In this document: positions 10,866 through 16,133 of the stretch, piece after piece
Layout: each line of letters opens with the position of its first letter
How positions within the stretch are numbered: the first letter of the stretch is position 1
Assembly: GCF_025998535.1 (NCBI RefSeq)
Contig: NZ_AP024233.1
Span: 186,001 to 250,000 of the forward strand
Source: Desulfolithobacter dissulfuricans
Lineage (GTDB): Bacteria > Desulfobacterota > Desulfobulbia > Desulfobulbales > Desulfobulbaceae
DNA length: 64,000 nucleotides
Reading direction: 5' to 3'
Made by a program: the position numbers and the translations under genes
Notes under the pieces: model-generated
Databases searched by the model: none
What the model was told of the DNA's origin: nothing
The model's input: the letters and a program-made list of their open reading frames with translations, nothing else

Positions 10866-11264
10866 TCACTCCCCGGGTGAACGCATGGCCACAAGGCCGC
10901 GCCGGCCCAGTTCCTTGAAGAACGAGGTGACCGCAATCTCGGCCTCGCGCTGTTCCAGCTGATAGAGCTCCTGGAATGCGGTCACGATCTCCCCAACGCT
11001 TTTTTCTCCGTCCACCAGTTTCCAGACCGTCATTCCCAGAATATCGAGCTGCAGTTTTCTGGTGATGACCGCGTTCTGCTGCAGGCTGAACCGTTTGAAA
11101 ACACCCTGGAACCAGGGTCTGACCTCCACCGGCCAGCTAAGTCGCAGTTCACCGTTTTCCTGCATTTCATCCTCCACTTCCGGGTTGCGGACCGGGATGC
11201 AGGCAAGGGCGTGGCGTCGGTCCTGGGGGCTGGGCGTGGCTGGAGTCTTTTTTCTAAACAGCAT
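10866..11264 (-). CDS. PqqD-like (RRE-fold) domain protein
   Basis: 132 aa. The C-terminal ~85 residues fit a PqqD-type winged helix: RKLQLDILGMTVWKLVDGEKSV, then IVTAFQELYQLE and VTSFFKELGRRGLV. The fold is known as a recognition element for ribosomally made peptides in PQQ and RiPP pathways, but many PqqD-like proteins occur elsewhere. The start ATG at 11264 overlaps the end of the preceding gene by 11 bases. It is the last gene of a five-gene minus-strand operon that begins with an ABC exporter. A precursor peptide and a radical SAM enzyme were not found next to it. Confidence 0.75.
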   Translation of the reverse strand: MLFRKKTPATPSPQDRRHALACIPVRNPEVEDEMQENGELRLSWPVEVRPWFQGVFKRFSLQQNAVITRKLQLDILGMTVWKLVDGEKSVGEIVTAFQELYQLEQREAEIAVTSFFKELGRRGLVAMRSPGE

Positions 11265-12150
11265 GGTTTTCGCTCCGGGATCCGCGTAGCGGGCGGATGG
11301 TGAAATCTCTGCAGAGTTGCTGGAGCAGGGCATGATCGAGCCGCCGGTGGCTGCGGGCCTGCAGGCCGAGAATCACGTTGTGGTCGGCCAGGTGCCACAG
11401 CCGGAGCCAGCGGCCCGCCGCCTTTCTCCGCAGCCGGCCGACAAAACGCTGGACAGGTGTCGGTTCCCGGTACCAGTGGAAAACGTTTTCCTTTTTCTTT
11501 TCCCGGTCCTCCATCGGTGTCCCGGCAAGCTGGCCGGCAAAACCTGCCAGGCCCTGGCGGTGCAGTATCGCGTCGGCTGGCCGGAATCGCAACAGTTCAA
11601 CCCGGTGGTCGCCGATCCGGTAGCTGATCCGGAACCGGCCGGCAAGAAACTCCTGGCCTTCCAGTCGGGCTCCGGAAGGGAGCAGAGCCCGGATATCAAA
11701 GACTGTCACCAGCTGTCCGGCGTTCCCGGGGTGATCCTGGAAACTGTCCAGGATCATCTCGGCTTCGCCTGCCTCGCCATGGAACTGGAGGATCGTCACC
11801 CTGGCACATCGGCGACAGTGGAGGAGCAGGCCTGTCCCGGCCTGTCCACCGCCCTGCCAGCGGAATCCGTGCCAGCCAAAACGGTCAAGATGGTTCTGCC
11901 ACCGGTCCGGGACAGTCCAGGGGCTTAATCCTCCCCCGTCCCTGCCCAGAGAACGGTGCAGCTTCTTGAGAATCTGGCCGGCATCAAAGCCGCGACCGGC
12001 CTCCTGCCACCTGACGGCCAGGGCCGGCTGGTACCGGGCCTCAAGGAGCAGGTAATCCCTGCGGAGCACCGTCGGCTGCCAGTCCGGTGGTATCATCAGG
12101 CGGATACCGTTCCAGGCCAGCTCCCGCATCGGTACGGTCTGCCCGGCCAT
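11254..12150 (-). CDS. Protein of unknown function, operon with ABC exporter and PqqD-like protein
   Basis: 298 aa from the ATG at 12150, which overlaps the stop codon of the secreted-protein gene by one base (TGATG), indicating translational coupling. No signal peptide or membrane helix is visible, so it is probably cytoplasmic. It begins MAGQTVPMRELAWNGIRLMIP, is rich in Arg, Trp and Leu, and ends with the basic segment RSHRRLDHALLQQL before RDFTIRPLRGS. The opening (WNGI.L..P..W.P..L..DYL.LE) repeats a pattern I associate with beta-rich unknown proteins paired with PqqD-like genes, but I cannot name a family. The GTG/TTG codons upstream would extend it by up to 34 residues. Confidence 0.6.
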   Translation of the reverse strand: MAGQTVPMRELAWNGIRLMIPPDWQPTVLRRDYLLLEARYQPALAVRWQEAGRGFDAGQILKKLHRSLGRDGGGLSPWTVPDRWQNHLDRFGWHGFRWQGGGQAGTGLLLHCRRCARVTILQFHGEAGEAEMILDSFQDHPGNAGQLVTVFDIRALLPSGARLEGQEFLAGRFRISYRIGDHRVELLRFRPADAILHRQGLAGFAGQLAGTPMEDREKKKENVFHWYREPTPVQRFVGRLRRKAAGRWLRLWHLADHNVILGLQARSHRRLDHALLQQLCRDFTIRPLRGSRSENHAV

Positions 12151-12746
12151 CAGCGGGGAATCATCTTGACCCAGTCCTCGGGAGAGAGCTGCTGCCGGGT
12201 CCTGTGGTCTGTTTGTTGCCGGGTCCGGGCATGGGTCAGTTTCCGGAAGCATTTTTCCTCGGCCCGTATCCTTTCCGGCAGGCTGAGCTTGACCGTGTTG
12301 CCGGTGGATTCATCGGGATTTTGCAGGTTATGCTGGAGCACCAGGGTCACCCGGTTGCCTTGCCTGTCCGTAAAGGTCCATTTCCAGGCCTTGACCACCC
12401 CGAAGGCGTCACCCACATACTCATCGGGCTCGCCGAACCGGTCCTTGTACTTCTTCATCAGTTTCTTGAAGAAACGCTCGGAGCTGTCCTTGTACTTGAG
12501 TTTGATCTTGACGATTTCCCCGGGCCGCTCACAGACGCCATAGTAGATGATTCCCTTGCGAAAACCGGGGATATTCTCCACCACCACCTGGTTGAGAAAG
12601 TTGCGGTAGGAGATGAAGTCATAATCTTCCACCGAGCTGCCCAGACTGAAACCACCTATTTCGTGCGGGACCGGTGCACCCTGGCCGGCGTGGGCGGGAG
12701 GCGGGCTGGTGAGAAAAATGCAGACAGCGAGCAGGAAGTGTTTCAT
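12150..12746 (-). CDS. Secreted protein of unknown function
   Basis: 198 aa with a signal peptide (MKHFLLAVCIFLTSPPPAHA, cleavage probably after AHA). The mature part opens with PVPHEIGGFSLGSSVEDYD, reminiscent of small periplasmic proteins that describe a flow or gate term, and it is rich in Lys and aromatic residues. The tail is hydrophilic and basic (HARTRQQTDHRTRQQ). It is the third gene of the operon; the 24-base gap to the cyclic-nucleotide-binding gene and 1-base overlap with the next imply co-expression. A periplasmic partner of the exporter is possible but not shown. Confidence 0.65.
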   Translation of the reverse strand: MKHFLLAVCIFLTSPPPAHAGQGAPVPHEIGGFSLGSSVEDYDFISYRNFLNQVVVENIPGFRKGIIYYGVCERPGEIVKIKLKYKDSSERFFKKLMKKYKDRFGEPDEYVGDAFGVVKAWKWTFTDRQGNRVTLVLQHNLQNPDESTGNTVKLSLPERIRAEEKCFRKLTHARTRQQTDHRTRQQLSPEDWVKMIPR

Positions 12747-12770: not shown

Positions 12771-13322
12771 TCACATGAAATCCGCTTCGGTCAGGGTAAT
12801 GGCCTCCAGCGCCTCCTCACTCAGCCGATCCAGAAGAAAATTGGTCTGGGCCACGAACCGCTGGATGCGGAGTTCAACTATTTTTTCCACCGCCGATATA
12901 TAGCGCTCCGGGTAGCGTTCCATGACTCGGCGAAAGGCCTCTCTGGTGAGAGAATAGAGCACAGTCTCACTCCGGGCCACGGCGCAGAAGGGCGAGTTGA
13001 ATTTTGAAACCAGGGACAGCTCGCCAAAATAATTGAGTTCCTCGCCCTTGAGCTCCTGGAAAAGAAAAAGCTTGTTCTCCCGGTGATGGCAGATGGCGAC
13101 CTGGCCCGAAACGATGAGGAACATCCGGTCACAGGGAGTGGCATGGCGCAGAATGATATCGCCCTTGTGGTAATGTTCCTTCTGGGCAAGGTAGGCATAA
13201 AGTCGGAGGATATCAAGCGGTGTCTCTGCGAAAACAGGCAGCCGTCTCAGAAACAGCAGGGCCTGCTCTATGTGGTCCTGGGAAAAGATATGCTGCGATT
13301 TAGTTTCCTCTGGTGAGTTCAT
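12771..13322 (-). CDS. Cyclic-nucleotide-binding (cNMP) domain protein without HTH
   Basis: 183 aa. It is a single CAP_ED-type beta-roll: LPVFAETPLDILRLYAYLAQKEHYHKGDIILRHATPCDRMFLIVSG..., with the phosphate-binding-cassette region replaced by GELSLVSKFNSPFCAVARSE. No DNA-binding helix-turn-helix follows; the C-terminal ~50 residues are helical. The start ATG at 13322 has AAAGGAG 6 bases upstream; this start overlaps the end of the ABC exporter gene by 23 bases. A regulatory or docking subunit of that exporter is a reasonable inference. Whether it binds a nucleotide is unknown. Confidence 0.85.
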   Translation of the reverse strand: MNSPEETKSQHIFSQDHIEQALLFLRRLPVFAETPLDILRLYAYLAQKEHYHKGDIILRHATPCDRMFLIVSGQVAICHHRENKLFLFQELKGEELNYFGELSLVSKFNSPFCAVARSETVLYSLTREAFRRVMERYPERYISAVEKIVELRIQRFVAQTNFLLDRLSEEALEAITLTEADFM

Positions 13323-15843
13323 AAAAGGCTCCTTTACGTGCCATGAGTTCGTCATACTTGCCCTGTTCTATGATCGAGCCGGCCTTGAGGACCACGATCC
13401 GGTCATAGGATGGGGCCAGGTCCAGCCGGTGCATGACCGCGATTACGGTCTTGCGCCGGTCCCGGAACCGGGTACTGACCAGCTCCTGTATACGGGCCTG
13501 GGAGGCGTTATCCAGGCTGGCAGTGGCCTCGTCCATGATCAGGATCGGCGTGTCGCGCATGAAGGCCCGGGCAATGGCCAGTTTCTGCTGCTGGCCGCCG
13601 GAAAGCCGGTCCCCCTTGCTGCCGACATGAAAGTTGAGACCGATATCCAGGATGTCGTCAAGCAGGTCTTCCTTTTCAAATGCCTTGCTGGCCAGCTGAA
13701 TCAGCCGGGAGTCGATCTTGTCCGCGGTTTTCAGGGCGCCGAAAAGGATATTGTCGAGCAGGGTATGGGAGTAGAGATACTGGCTGGGACAGTATGGGAT
13801 AAAAGTACATCTATCTCCACATTTTTCATTCTTGCCGCAGGGTCGGAGGGTACCCTTGCTCAGGCAGTGGTCCAGATCGACCCGGGCGACCTCACGGAGA
13901 AACCGGTGGCGCAGTTCCAGGATATTCCGGTCGAGTCCCTGGGGCAGCGAGGTGATCTTGTGGACCGCCGGGATGAAGCGCAGGGCCAGGATGAGCAGCA
14001 TCCGCTGGTCGGTGGCGCTGGTGGGCAGGTCACCGTTGAGTTTCCTTACCAGTTCGGCATAGGCCTGGAGTTCCGTGGGTTCCATCGGTGTGCTGCGGAA
14101 AAAGAACTCGTCGTCAGCATAGTCACCGAGAAGTTCCACTGTATGGATGGCAATGGAAAATCCGAGCTCCAGCAGGGGCTCCAGCATCCCGGTCCGTTCC
14201 AGGAGCTGCATGAATTCGCGGTTGTCCGGCAGGTTATCGGTGGCAAAGAGGTTATCCGCCCCTTCGCCGAATACGATGTTGTCATGAATGCTCGAGTAGT
14301 AGAGGAAACTGCGGGCGTTGTAGAATTCCACCGTATCGGCGAACTCGTGCCGCAGGTCGATGCTGATGATTTGCCGCATGCGCAGGAACCGCTCCCTGAA
14401 TGGTTCGCACTGCTCCTCGTCAAGTACGCTCTGGAAGCCAAACCGGATGATATCCTCCTCGAGGCCCACGTCGCGGACCGCTTGGAGAATAGTCCGCCGC
14501 TCCGGTTCGATGTGCGGATCGCCACCGTGCAGGGCCTGGACCCCGTAGAGCAGGTTCTGGCGGATGGTGCCGGTGAAGATGAACGGCCGCTGGGCGATCA
14601 TGGTCATGTTGTGGTTGATGTCCTGCTTGCTCAGGGTGGCGATGTCGTAGCCATCGAGAAGGATGGAGCCGCTGGTGAGGTCGTAGAGCTGGGCGATGAG
14701 CAGGACCAGGGTGGATTTCCCGGATCCGGAGAAGCCGACCAGGGCCACCTGTTCACCGGCCTGGATGTCCAGGTTGATCCGCTGGAGCAGTTTGATGTCG
14801 GTGTTGATGGAAAATCCTGCGTTTTTTATCTCGATATTACCTTCGAGCTGCAGCGGTTCCCGCCCTTCGGGCAGGATCGAGTGGGCCGGATCCATGTCAA
14901 AGATCTGCATGATCTGTCGATAGCGGACCCTGGCATCCTGGTAGGACTGGTAGTACTCGATCATCTCCTTCCAGGGATCGTAGACCTTTTCGTAGGCCGA
15001 GAGGAAGGCCACCAGCGCGCCGAGGGTAAACTTGCCGTGGATGGCCAGGTAGCCGCCCACCAGGAAGAGGATGAACGGCCCGAAAGACTGGAACAGGTTG
15101 TTAGCGAACTTGATGCCGTATTTGACGAAGAAGAGTTTCTTCAGATGGTTGTAGAGGGCCCGGATATGATTGCCGATCCGGCGCTCCTCAAGGTTATAGC
15201 TGGCATTGGCGTGGATTTCGTGGATGCCGGAGATGGCCTCGTTGACCACGTTGGCCATGGAGCGGACGGTCTTGATTCGCCTCCGGTTGAGACGGTTGTA
15301 TTTTTTCTGCAGCAGGGGGATGACTATTACTTCCAGGGGATAGACTCCCATGCTCAAAAGGGCCAGCAGTGGACTGAGGCTGTACATGTAGCCGAGGAAG
15401 ACCACAAAGGTCAGAATGGAGGTCAGGGGGATGGCCAGGGCGCCGCCGAGGAAGAAACCAATGGCATTGAGTTCCGACGTCATGGCCGAGACCACGGTAC
15501 CCGGCTGCATCTTCCGGTAGAACTGCAGGGGCAGCTGGAGGATGTGGTGGTAGAGTTCCTGGCGCATCTCCACCAGGATTTTCTGGCCGATGATGGTCTG
15601 CAGGACATTGATGGCGTACTTGGATATTCCGGCCAGGGTCACGGCGCCGATATAGAGCCCGCAGTAGAGAAAGAGCAGATCCTGCTTGCGCAGGTGGATG
15701 GCCTCGTTGATGATCCGTTTCTGCATCTCCAGGGGAAAGACCCGGAAAAAGAGGCTGGCGAGGATGATGGCGAGCAGGATCAGCTGCATGCCGCGGTGGC
15801 GGTGCAGAATCCAGGAAAAGAGAGGGCGTCTGGTGACTCGCAT
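13300..15843 (-). CDS. ABC exporter (permease-ATPase) with a large cysteine-containing insertion inside the nucleotide-binding domain
   Basis: 847 aa from ATG 15843. Residues 1-320 are a type IV-like exporter transmembrane domain with about six helices. The nucleotide-binding domain has Walker A GFSGSGKST (about 370-378), a Q-loop (AQRPFIFTG, Q418), then ~270 extra residues before the signature LSGGQQQ (747), Walker B LIMDEA (D771) and the H-loop (H805). Inside the insertion the sequence after the Q-loop recurs: TIRQNLLYG (428-434), SIHDNIVFG (518-526) and TLLDNILFG (694-702). Each copy is followed by a similar helical stretch, and the last is preceded by a second Q (CPSQYLYS). Five cysteines cluster at 660-685. 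It is the first gene of the operon. Substrate unknown. Confidence 0.88.
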   Translation of the reverse strand: MRVTRRPLFSWILHRHRGMQLILLAIILASLFFRVFPLEMQKRIINEAIHLRKQDLLFLYCGLYIGAVTLAGISKYAINVLQTIIGQKILVEMRQELYHHILQLPLQFYRKMQPGTVVSAMTSELNAIGFFLGGALAIPLTSILTFVVFLGYMYSLSPLLALLSMGVYPLEVIVIPLLQKKYNRLNRRRIKTVRSMANVVNEAISGIHEIHANASYNLEERRIGNHIRALYNHLKKLFFVKYGIKFANNLFQSFGPFILFLVGGYLAIHGKFTLGALVAFLSAYEKVYDPWKEMIEYYQSYQDARVRYRQIMQIFDMDPAHSILPEGREPLQLEGNIEIKNAGFSINTDIKLLQRINLDIQAGEQVALVGFSGSGKSTLVLLIAQLYDLTSGSILLDGYDIATLSKQDINHNMTMIAQRPFIFTGTIRQNLLYGVQALHGGDPHIEPERRTILQAVRDVGLEEDIIRFGFQSVLDEEQCEPFRERFLRMRQIISIDLRHEFADTVEFYNARSFLYYSSIHDNIVFGEGADNLFATDNLPDNREFMQLLERTGMLEPLLELGFSIAIHTVELLGDYADDEFFFRSTPMEPTELQAYAELVRKLNGDLPTSATDQRMLLILALRFIPAVHKITSLPQGLDRNILELRHRFLREVARVDLDHCLSKGTLRPCGKNEKCGDRCTFIPYCPSQYLYSHTLLDNILFGALKTADKIDSRLIQLASKAFEKEDLLDDILDIGLNFHVGSKGDRLSGGQQQKLAIARAFMRDTPILIMDEATASLDNASQARIQELVSTRFRDRRKTVIAVMHRLDLAPSYDRIVVLKAGSIIEQGKYDELMARKGAFYELTRGN

Positions 15844-16133
15844 GTTCAGCAAAGACCTTGGGCCGGAAGGCCTGTCCGGGAAGACATGGTGCCGTCCATG
15901 TTGCCGGGCCGGCCTGGTTGTGGAAAAATGAACGGATGGATTTTCGCAGGATCAGGAGGATAATGCAAGGCCTATTTTAGACCGGGAGCCCCGCCAATGC
16001 CCGCCAGGCCGGTCCTGGAAGCGAGGCGGGGATATTTTCCCTCCAGGAGGGGGAATTAGTCTGGATATGATCGCGGTGACGTGCTACTAATTGGCAGTTT
16101 GTTTCCACCTGTTTTCTTCAGAAAGGAGTCGTC

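Follow-up and report, generated by a model that had tools for sequence, protein, structure and literature searches.

ATP-binding cassette (ABC) exporters of the MsbA/ABCB type (type IV fold) combine a membrane domain with an ATPase core. ATP binding is coupled to the membrane domain in the part of that core that runs from the Q-loop to the signature. The insertion domains of UvrA, the arm of ABCF proteins and the coiled coil of SMC/Rad50 are insertions between Walker A and the signature in ABC ATPases; these inserts are not known to be copies of the Q-loop and helix unit, and the proteins that carry them are not exporters. A second point of comparison is HetC, an ABC exporter tied to a domain of the cyclic-nucleotide-binding (cNMP) type, which is reported to bind ppGpp in vitro and to be required in vivo (PMC10986499). 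The gene analysed here lies in a 64,000-nucleotide stretch of the Desulfolithobacter dissulfuricans genome (NZ_AP024233.1, positions 186,001–250,000), below called the window. It encodes an ABC exporter with a triplicated segment in its ATPase domain, and a gene for a cNMP-binding-domain protein, below called the partner, is found directly downstream. The exporter apparently belongs to an undescribed, so far unnamed family of the MsbA/ABCB type; no description of such a family was found among the papers listed by a full-text literature search, judged by titles and the beginnings of abstracts, with most subscription papers outside its coverage.

The exporter has the membrane domain and ATPase core of MsbA/ABCB-type proteins. 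The Pfam model ABC_membrane (PF00664) scores 117.7 bits (cut-off 28), which places the membrane domain in the type IV fold, and Walker A, Q-loop, LSGGQ, Walker B Glu and H-loop His are all intact. The best NCBIfam match is MsbA (TIGR02203), though its 320.8 bits fall below the cut-off of 602. The protein also differs from these exporters in its triplicated unit, its cNMP partner and the distance between Q-loop and signature. From Q421 to L750 (residues are counted from the TTG at 15852) there are 329 residues. In the 27 ordinary-exporter rows compared, all drawn from genomes of the same phylum as the window, the distance is 55–56; two of these rows, L089 and L090, are identical in sequence. 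The surplus of ca. 273 residues agrees with the ~270 estimated in an earlier note made from the sequence alone. A single helical subdomain of ordinary length in this position, which is usual for such exporters if not strictly defining, is not found in this protein. Its ABC_tran domain is split in Pfam, and no known domain in Pfam or NCBIfam matched the insert. Within the insert family the distance from Q-loop to signature ranges from 311 to 447 residues.

The earlier note also proposed, from pattern similarity, that the segment after the Q-loop recurs three times (TIRQNLLYG, SIHDNIVFG, TLLDNILFG). All three segments are present, and the internal self-alignment that it suggested was run with hhalign on segments of a 55-member alignment from the window's phylum (copy 1, residues 410–482; copy 2, 501–580; copy 3, 680–742). 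The segments match one another, with scores of 45.6 (copies 1 and 2), 47.2 (1 and 3) and 61.1 (2 and 3) and probabilities of 96.0, 96.5 and 97.8. The best of 100 column permutations reached 18.3, 19.3 and 21.7 for the same pairs. They also match the equivalent stretch of the 27 ordinary exporters – 72.0, 32.9 and 35.1 for copies 1, 2 and 3, with a permuted maximum of 18.5. None of the 100 permutations reached the observed score in any of these six comparisons, and 12 decoy windows of the same protein scored at most 16.2. The Pseudomonadota rows alone gave 42.2, 41.9 and 79.0 for the three copy pairs, with a decoy maximum of 13.5, so that the threefold recurrence is supported in two clades separately. 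All 83 family rows have the Asn of the repeated motif in each of the three copies. These comparisons show, at the level of sequence profiles, that the unit of Q-loop strand plus following helices is triplicated inside the ATPase domain. The region between copies 2 and 3 was tried as a fourth repeat and ruled out; its hhalign scores, 9.3–13.6, lie inside the permuted range.

A profile of copies 2 and 3, with copy 1 excluded, was searched against all Protein Data Bank (PDB) sequences. There were ten matches at E≤1, weak (E 0.25–0.93) and all to ABC transporters, and in the two alignments displayed both copies align on the Q-loop stretch of MRP1. In a predicted model of residues 476–745 alone, which is compact (predicted local distance difference test, pLDDT, 86.0; predicted template modelling score, pTM, 0.83), copies 2 and 3 have in common the order strand, short helix, strand, helix, helix. 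Copy 3 adds one helix, and the order is in register with the hhalign alignment. In the full-length AlphaFold model, built from 29 sequences with a mean pLDDT of 70.6, blocks of ten residues have values of 79–93 over 451–660 and 44–57 near 661–680. The modelled nucleotide-binding domain aligns with that of TAP1 (2ixf_C) over 249 of 252 residues (Z 27.2, root-mean-square deviation 2.2), so that even with the insert the core is predicted to have an ordinary fold. The 50 structure matches listed for the full model are ABC proteins, by title in every case but 7ekl and 7ekm, which we take to be ABC proteins as well.

Other parts of the earlier note did less well. Its three helical subdomains stand as a triplication and not as plain subdomains – copies 2 and 3, with a non-repeat linker of ca. 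100 residues, are modelled as a separate compact lobe. The five cysteines that it counted within 26 residues are there (C663, C672, C678, C682 and C688), but they were found in only 27, 12, 9, 1 and 30 of the 55 members, respectively. The Gln that it assigned to copy 3 as that copy's own Q (Q691) is Gln in 6 of 55 members of the window's phylum and 3 of 28 Pseudomonadota members. Since neither the cluster nor this Gln is conserved, both a metal-binding cysteine site and a second Q-loop in copy 3 are unlikely, and both were rejected. Cysteine C64 of the membrane domain (window 15661–15663), unlike the cluster, is conserved in 54 of the 55.

The insert was looked for in sampled genomes of four phyla: the window's, Pseudomonadota, and those of genomes G397 and G398. 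In the window's phylum 28 of 395 genomes carry it, with the window's own genome counted. Near-full-length copies of it occur in 24 of 299 genomes from the phylum of G395, here called Pseudomonadota since its seed locus L050 is from Paraburkholderia. The latter phylum had 28 matching genomes, and four with only short matches to the ordinary part were dropped. In the phyla of G397 and G398, 16 of 149 and 1 of 145 genomes had matches; every match stops at profile position 77 or earlier and is therefore taken as an ordinary exporter, so that the insert was found in neither phylum. Of five seed genomes, two likewise gave only matches ending by position 77. Named relatives include Desulfobulbaceae, Desulfocapsa, Desulfogranum and Desulfamplus, and a tblastn search with the insert returned 245 plasmid records, mainly of Rhizobium and Sinorhizobium. 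The family as counted here has 83 members, 55 from the window's phylum and 28 from Pseudomonadota. The 55 are those with an extracted locus, after removal of the partial loci L032, L034, L037 and L040, the own-genome copies L001 and L051, and two identical duplicates.

A quick tree, built without the insert from 27 family rows of less than 60% identity and 10 ordinary exporters (L135–L137, L139 and L140 were excluded), separates the family from the ordinary exporters with a support of 100. Another branch, also with a support of 100, has the Pseudomonadota members on one side. The tree carries long-branch and composition warnings, and the simple reading of it is a single origin of the triplication in the family ancestor.

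The partner probably starts at the ATG at 13322, behind an AAAGGAG within the end of the exporter gene, so that the two genes overlap by 23 bases; its longest open reading frame (ORF) begins at 13355. The AAAGGAG resembles a ribosome-binding site, and the pattern has a single occurrence in the window. When the flanks were searched with a profile, a partner frame was detected directly downstream, on the strand of the exporter, in 50 of 54 relatives from the window's phylum and in 19 of 28 Pseudomonadota members. In four further Pseudomonadota members the partner is fused to the C-terminus of the exporter, and Pfam cNMP_binding was found on both fusions tested. With the window counted, 51 of 55 members from its phylum and 23 of 28 from Pseudomonadota have an adjacent or fused partner (74 of 83). 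Two annotated rhizobial records show the same pair under the names "ABC transporter ATP-binding protein" and "cyclic nucleotide-binding domain-containing protein".

The two clades differ in what they have retained. All 55 members from the window's phylum have the Lys of Walker A, the Gln of the Q-loop, Ser-Gly in the signature, Asp-Glu in Walker B and the His of the H-loop, and likewise Q421 and N433 of copy 1. In Pseudomonadota (n=28) the Walker A Lys is found in five, the Q-loop Gln in one, the Walker B Glu in five and the H-loop His in two, and 22 members have none of these four. The partner shows the opposite trend. The phosphate-binding motif of cAMP and cGMP receptors is R[TS]A[TS]; 17 of 22 distinct partners from Pseudomonadota carry it, against 1 of 50 from the window's phylum, counted after removal of four identical rows and the cut-off rows L020 and L038. 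The window's own partner reads SPFCAVA at this place. The one exception in the window's phylum, L076, also has intact ATPase motifs, so that by motifs it still has both motor and sensor; in the quick tree a branch with a support of 97 unites the remaining 12 rows from its phylum and leaves L076 outside. This reciprocal decay of motor and sensor is the most striking pattern in the family, with few independent events behind it.

The mean pairwise identity within Pseudomonadota (18 rows, <70% identity) was 0.29 and 0.29 for the two parts of the core and 0.31, 0.36 and 0.32 for the three copies. When the most degenerate members were removed, leaving 15 rows, the second part of the core had 0.32 and the copies 0.31, 0.34 and 0.30, while the membrane domain was highest at 0.49. 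As the copies and the degenerate core are about equally conserved, the copies outlive catalysis, yet are not unusually conserved. Five Pseudomonadota members (L135, L136, L137, L139 and L140) are very degenerate; the membrane domain is barely recognisable (that of L135 scores slightly below the Pfam cut-off) and the Walker A Lys is gone, while the three motif Asn are still present.

The explanation that we favour, with slightly more confidence than doubt, is that the triplicated unit carries a lobe on which the partner docks, and that the partner gates coupling. A single event in the family ancestor, most simply, would have produced the triplication. Copy 1 stays joined to the Q-loop and copy 3 leads into the X-loop and signature, as the order of the segments shows, and copies 2 and 3 with their linker are predicted to be an added lobe of the ATPase domain. 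This lobe may be the docking site for the adjacent or fused cNMP-binding protein. A sensor seated on the segment between Q-loop and signature could then gate the coupling of ATP binding or hydrolysis to the membrane domain, acting through copies 1 and 3. Judging from its sequence, the window protein should be an ATP-hydrolysing homodimeric exporter controlled by its partner; hydrolysis is expected because all catalytic motifs are intact.

HetC may serve, by analogy, as a published precedent for an ABC exporter that needs a domain of the cNMP type. The HetC domain is N-terminal and occurs together with a C39 peptidase, unlike the separate gene or C-terminal fusion found here. No Pfam match to a C39 peptidase was found at E≤1 in the window exporter, and none in the other proteins scanned.

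Several results weigh against a partner-gated exporter. Nine of the 83 members have no detected partner (L015, L018, L036 and L039; L135–L137, L139 and L140), and in all of these but L036, whose contig ends 311 bases past the exporter, the partner frame is absent from the 1.1–6 kb downstream. Of the 50 distinct partners from the window's phylum, 49 have a degenerate phosphate-binding motif, the window's own included, which makes the partner's ligand doubtful. In that phylum the C-terminal core has a mean pairwise identity of 0.62, copies 2 and 3 only 0.35 (29 rows). The full-length model is of moderate quality (pTM 0.59), and both models are monomers. A Foldseek search of the PDB with the isolated 476–745 model gave no match at E≤0.001, and so no ABC fold for copies 2 and 3, which counts mildly against their being copies of the ABC unit. 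VIA-align found nothing convincing for the same model, with a best Z of 2.9 among 116 aligned chains; the six rows at Z 2.0–2.9 were RNA polymerase entries and a cohesin subunit.

The nine members that keep the insert without a detected cNMP gene would fit a structural or dimer-contact role, in which the extra copies dock against the other ATPase domain of the dimer, against the membrane surface or against the substrate, and the sensor regulates something else. It would also suit such a role that the Pseudomonadota copies are as conserved as their degenerate core. Genes that lie side by side in two phyla, and are fused in four members, are hard to account for unless the two proteins have a working link, and we regard the structural alternative as rather unlikely, if the most serious of the rivals. 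A tolerated internal duplication with no special role would account for the variable distance from Q-loop to signature and for the low-complexity growth in L035. It would not be expected to preserve the three Asn in every member while the ATPase motifs of one clade decayed, and the tree fits a single old origin retained in two phyla; neutral growth of this kind is improbable. The absence of an ABC match in Foldseek and VIA-align could point to an unrelated domain that came to resemble the three motifs by convergence. However, the profile scores in two clades are far above the permuted and same-protein controls, copies 2 and 3 share their order of strands and helices save for the one extra helix, and the PDB sequence search returned ABC transporters only, if weakly. 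Nor did any unrelated domain match the insert, as the earlier note had allowed it might, though a fold match that is weak or missing proves nothing. We think convergence very improbable. A frameshift, chimera or assembly error, also raised in that note, is refuted for practical purposes – the gene is one open frame in a single-contig genome, and the architecture recurs in dozens of genomes, including the 28 and 24 genomes of the survey.

A further reading of the reciprocal decay is offered tentatively, and we would sooner doubt it than rely on it. In the ancestor the lobe would have coupled a motor that hydrolysed ATP with a cNMP sensor that bound its ligand, after which Pseudomonadota lost the catalytic residues and kept the sensor, while the window's phylum kept the motor and the sensor pocket decayed. 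If so, the membrane domain in Pseudomonadota would be driven or gated by a cyclic nucleotide instead of by ATP hydrolysis – a cyclic-nucleotide-gated device made from an exporter scaffold.

What is new here is apparently a variant of the ABC exporter with a triplicated ATPase segment, for which there is no Pfam or NCBIfam model of the insert. A family that triplicates the Q-loop and helix unit, keeps it past the loss of ATPase motifs and pairs it with a cNMP-type sensor amounts to a natural experiment on what this unit does besides hydrolysis. Annotators gain a testable reading for a gene pair that carries generic names in the two rhizobial records examined.

Features of the exporter locus, in window positions
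Feature	Positions	Strand	Remarks
ABC exporter gene, whole	13300–15843	−	ATG at 15843; listed ORF from TTG at 15852
Transmembrane domain, residues 10–320	14893–15825	−	Pfam ABC_membrane at 26–285, E 1e-33
ATPase core, first part, residues 335–414	14611–14850	−	Walker A intact
Copy 1, residues 415–475, Q-loop Q421 and helices after it, TIRQNLLYG	14428–14610	−	Profile comparison
Linker 1, residues 476–504	14341–14427	−	Mainly one long helix in models
Copy 2, residues 505–580, SIHDNIVFG	14113–14340	−	Profile comparison; N525 in 83/83
Linker 2, residues 581–680	13813–14112	−	Mainly helical; not another repeat
Five-cysteine stretch, residues 663–688	13789–13866	−	Not conserved
Copy 3, residues 681–742, TLLDNILFG, runs into signature	13627–13812	−	N701 and G705 in 83/83
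ATPase core, second part, residues 743–850	13303–13626	−	LSGGQ, Walker B DEATASLD, H-loop His808
cNMP-binding-domain protein (partner)	12771–13322	−	Pfam cNMP_binding, E 7.1e-16
Conserved neighbour, ~200 amino acids	12150–12746	−	No Pfam family; relatives start with signal-like stretch (by eye)
Conserved neighbour, ~290 amino acids	11254–12252	−	No Pfam family above cut-off
PqqD-like conserved neighbour	10866–11333	−	Pfam PqqD, E 1.4e-8

The exporter ORF (13300–15852) is a single open frame of 850 amino acids from the TTG or 847 from the in-frame ATG. The ATG is more likely the start, because matches to relatives begin at residues 3–6, and it is also the coordinate given in the earlier note. 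The protein is the only full-length match in its own genome.

The three conserved neighbours (window 10866–12746) recur in 22 (~200 amino acids), 22 (~290 amino acids) and 20 (PqqD-like) of 31 compared loci, oriented the same way as the exporter and cNMP pair or divergent from it. The ~290-amino-acid gene probably starts later than listed; most of its relatives have 276–304 amino acids. Large membrane proteins are found near the pair in L014, L031 and other loci (cluster C8 in 10 of 31 and C9 in 9 of 31). When tested, the one from L031 matched DUF6785/DUF6784 and the one from L014 matched no Pfam family.

A few observations concern single genes. In L035 (7234–8565), from Desulfamplus, tandem CVDLGN-like units are found in the loop of copy 1, and in L034, from a metagenome genome, the exporter is encoded as two frames of 420 and 449 codons (333–2925). 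In the window, an antisense frame of 897 codons (13270–15963, plus strand) is open across the entire exporter gene, which codon choice can explain, since the sense gene has no TTA, CTA or TCA among its 851 codons.

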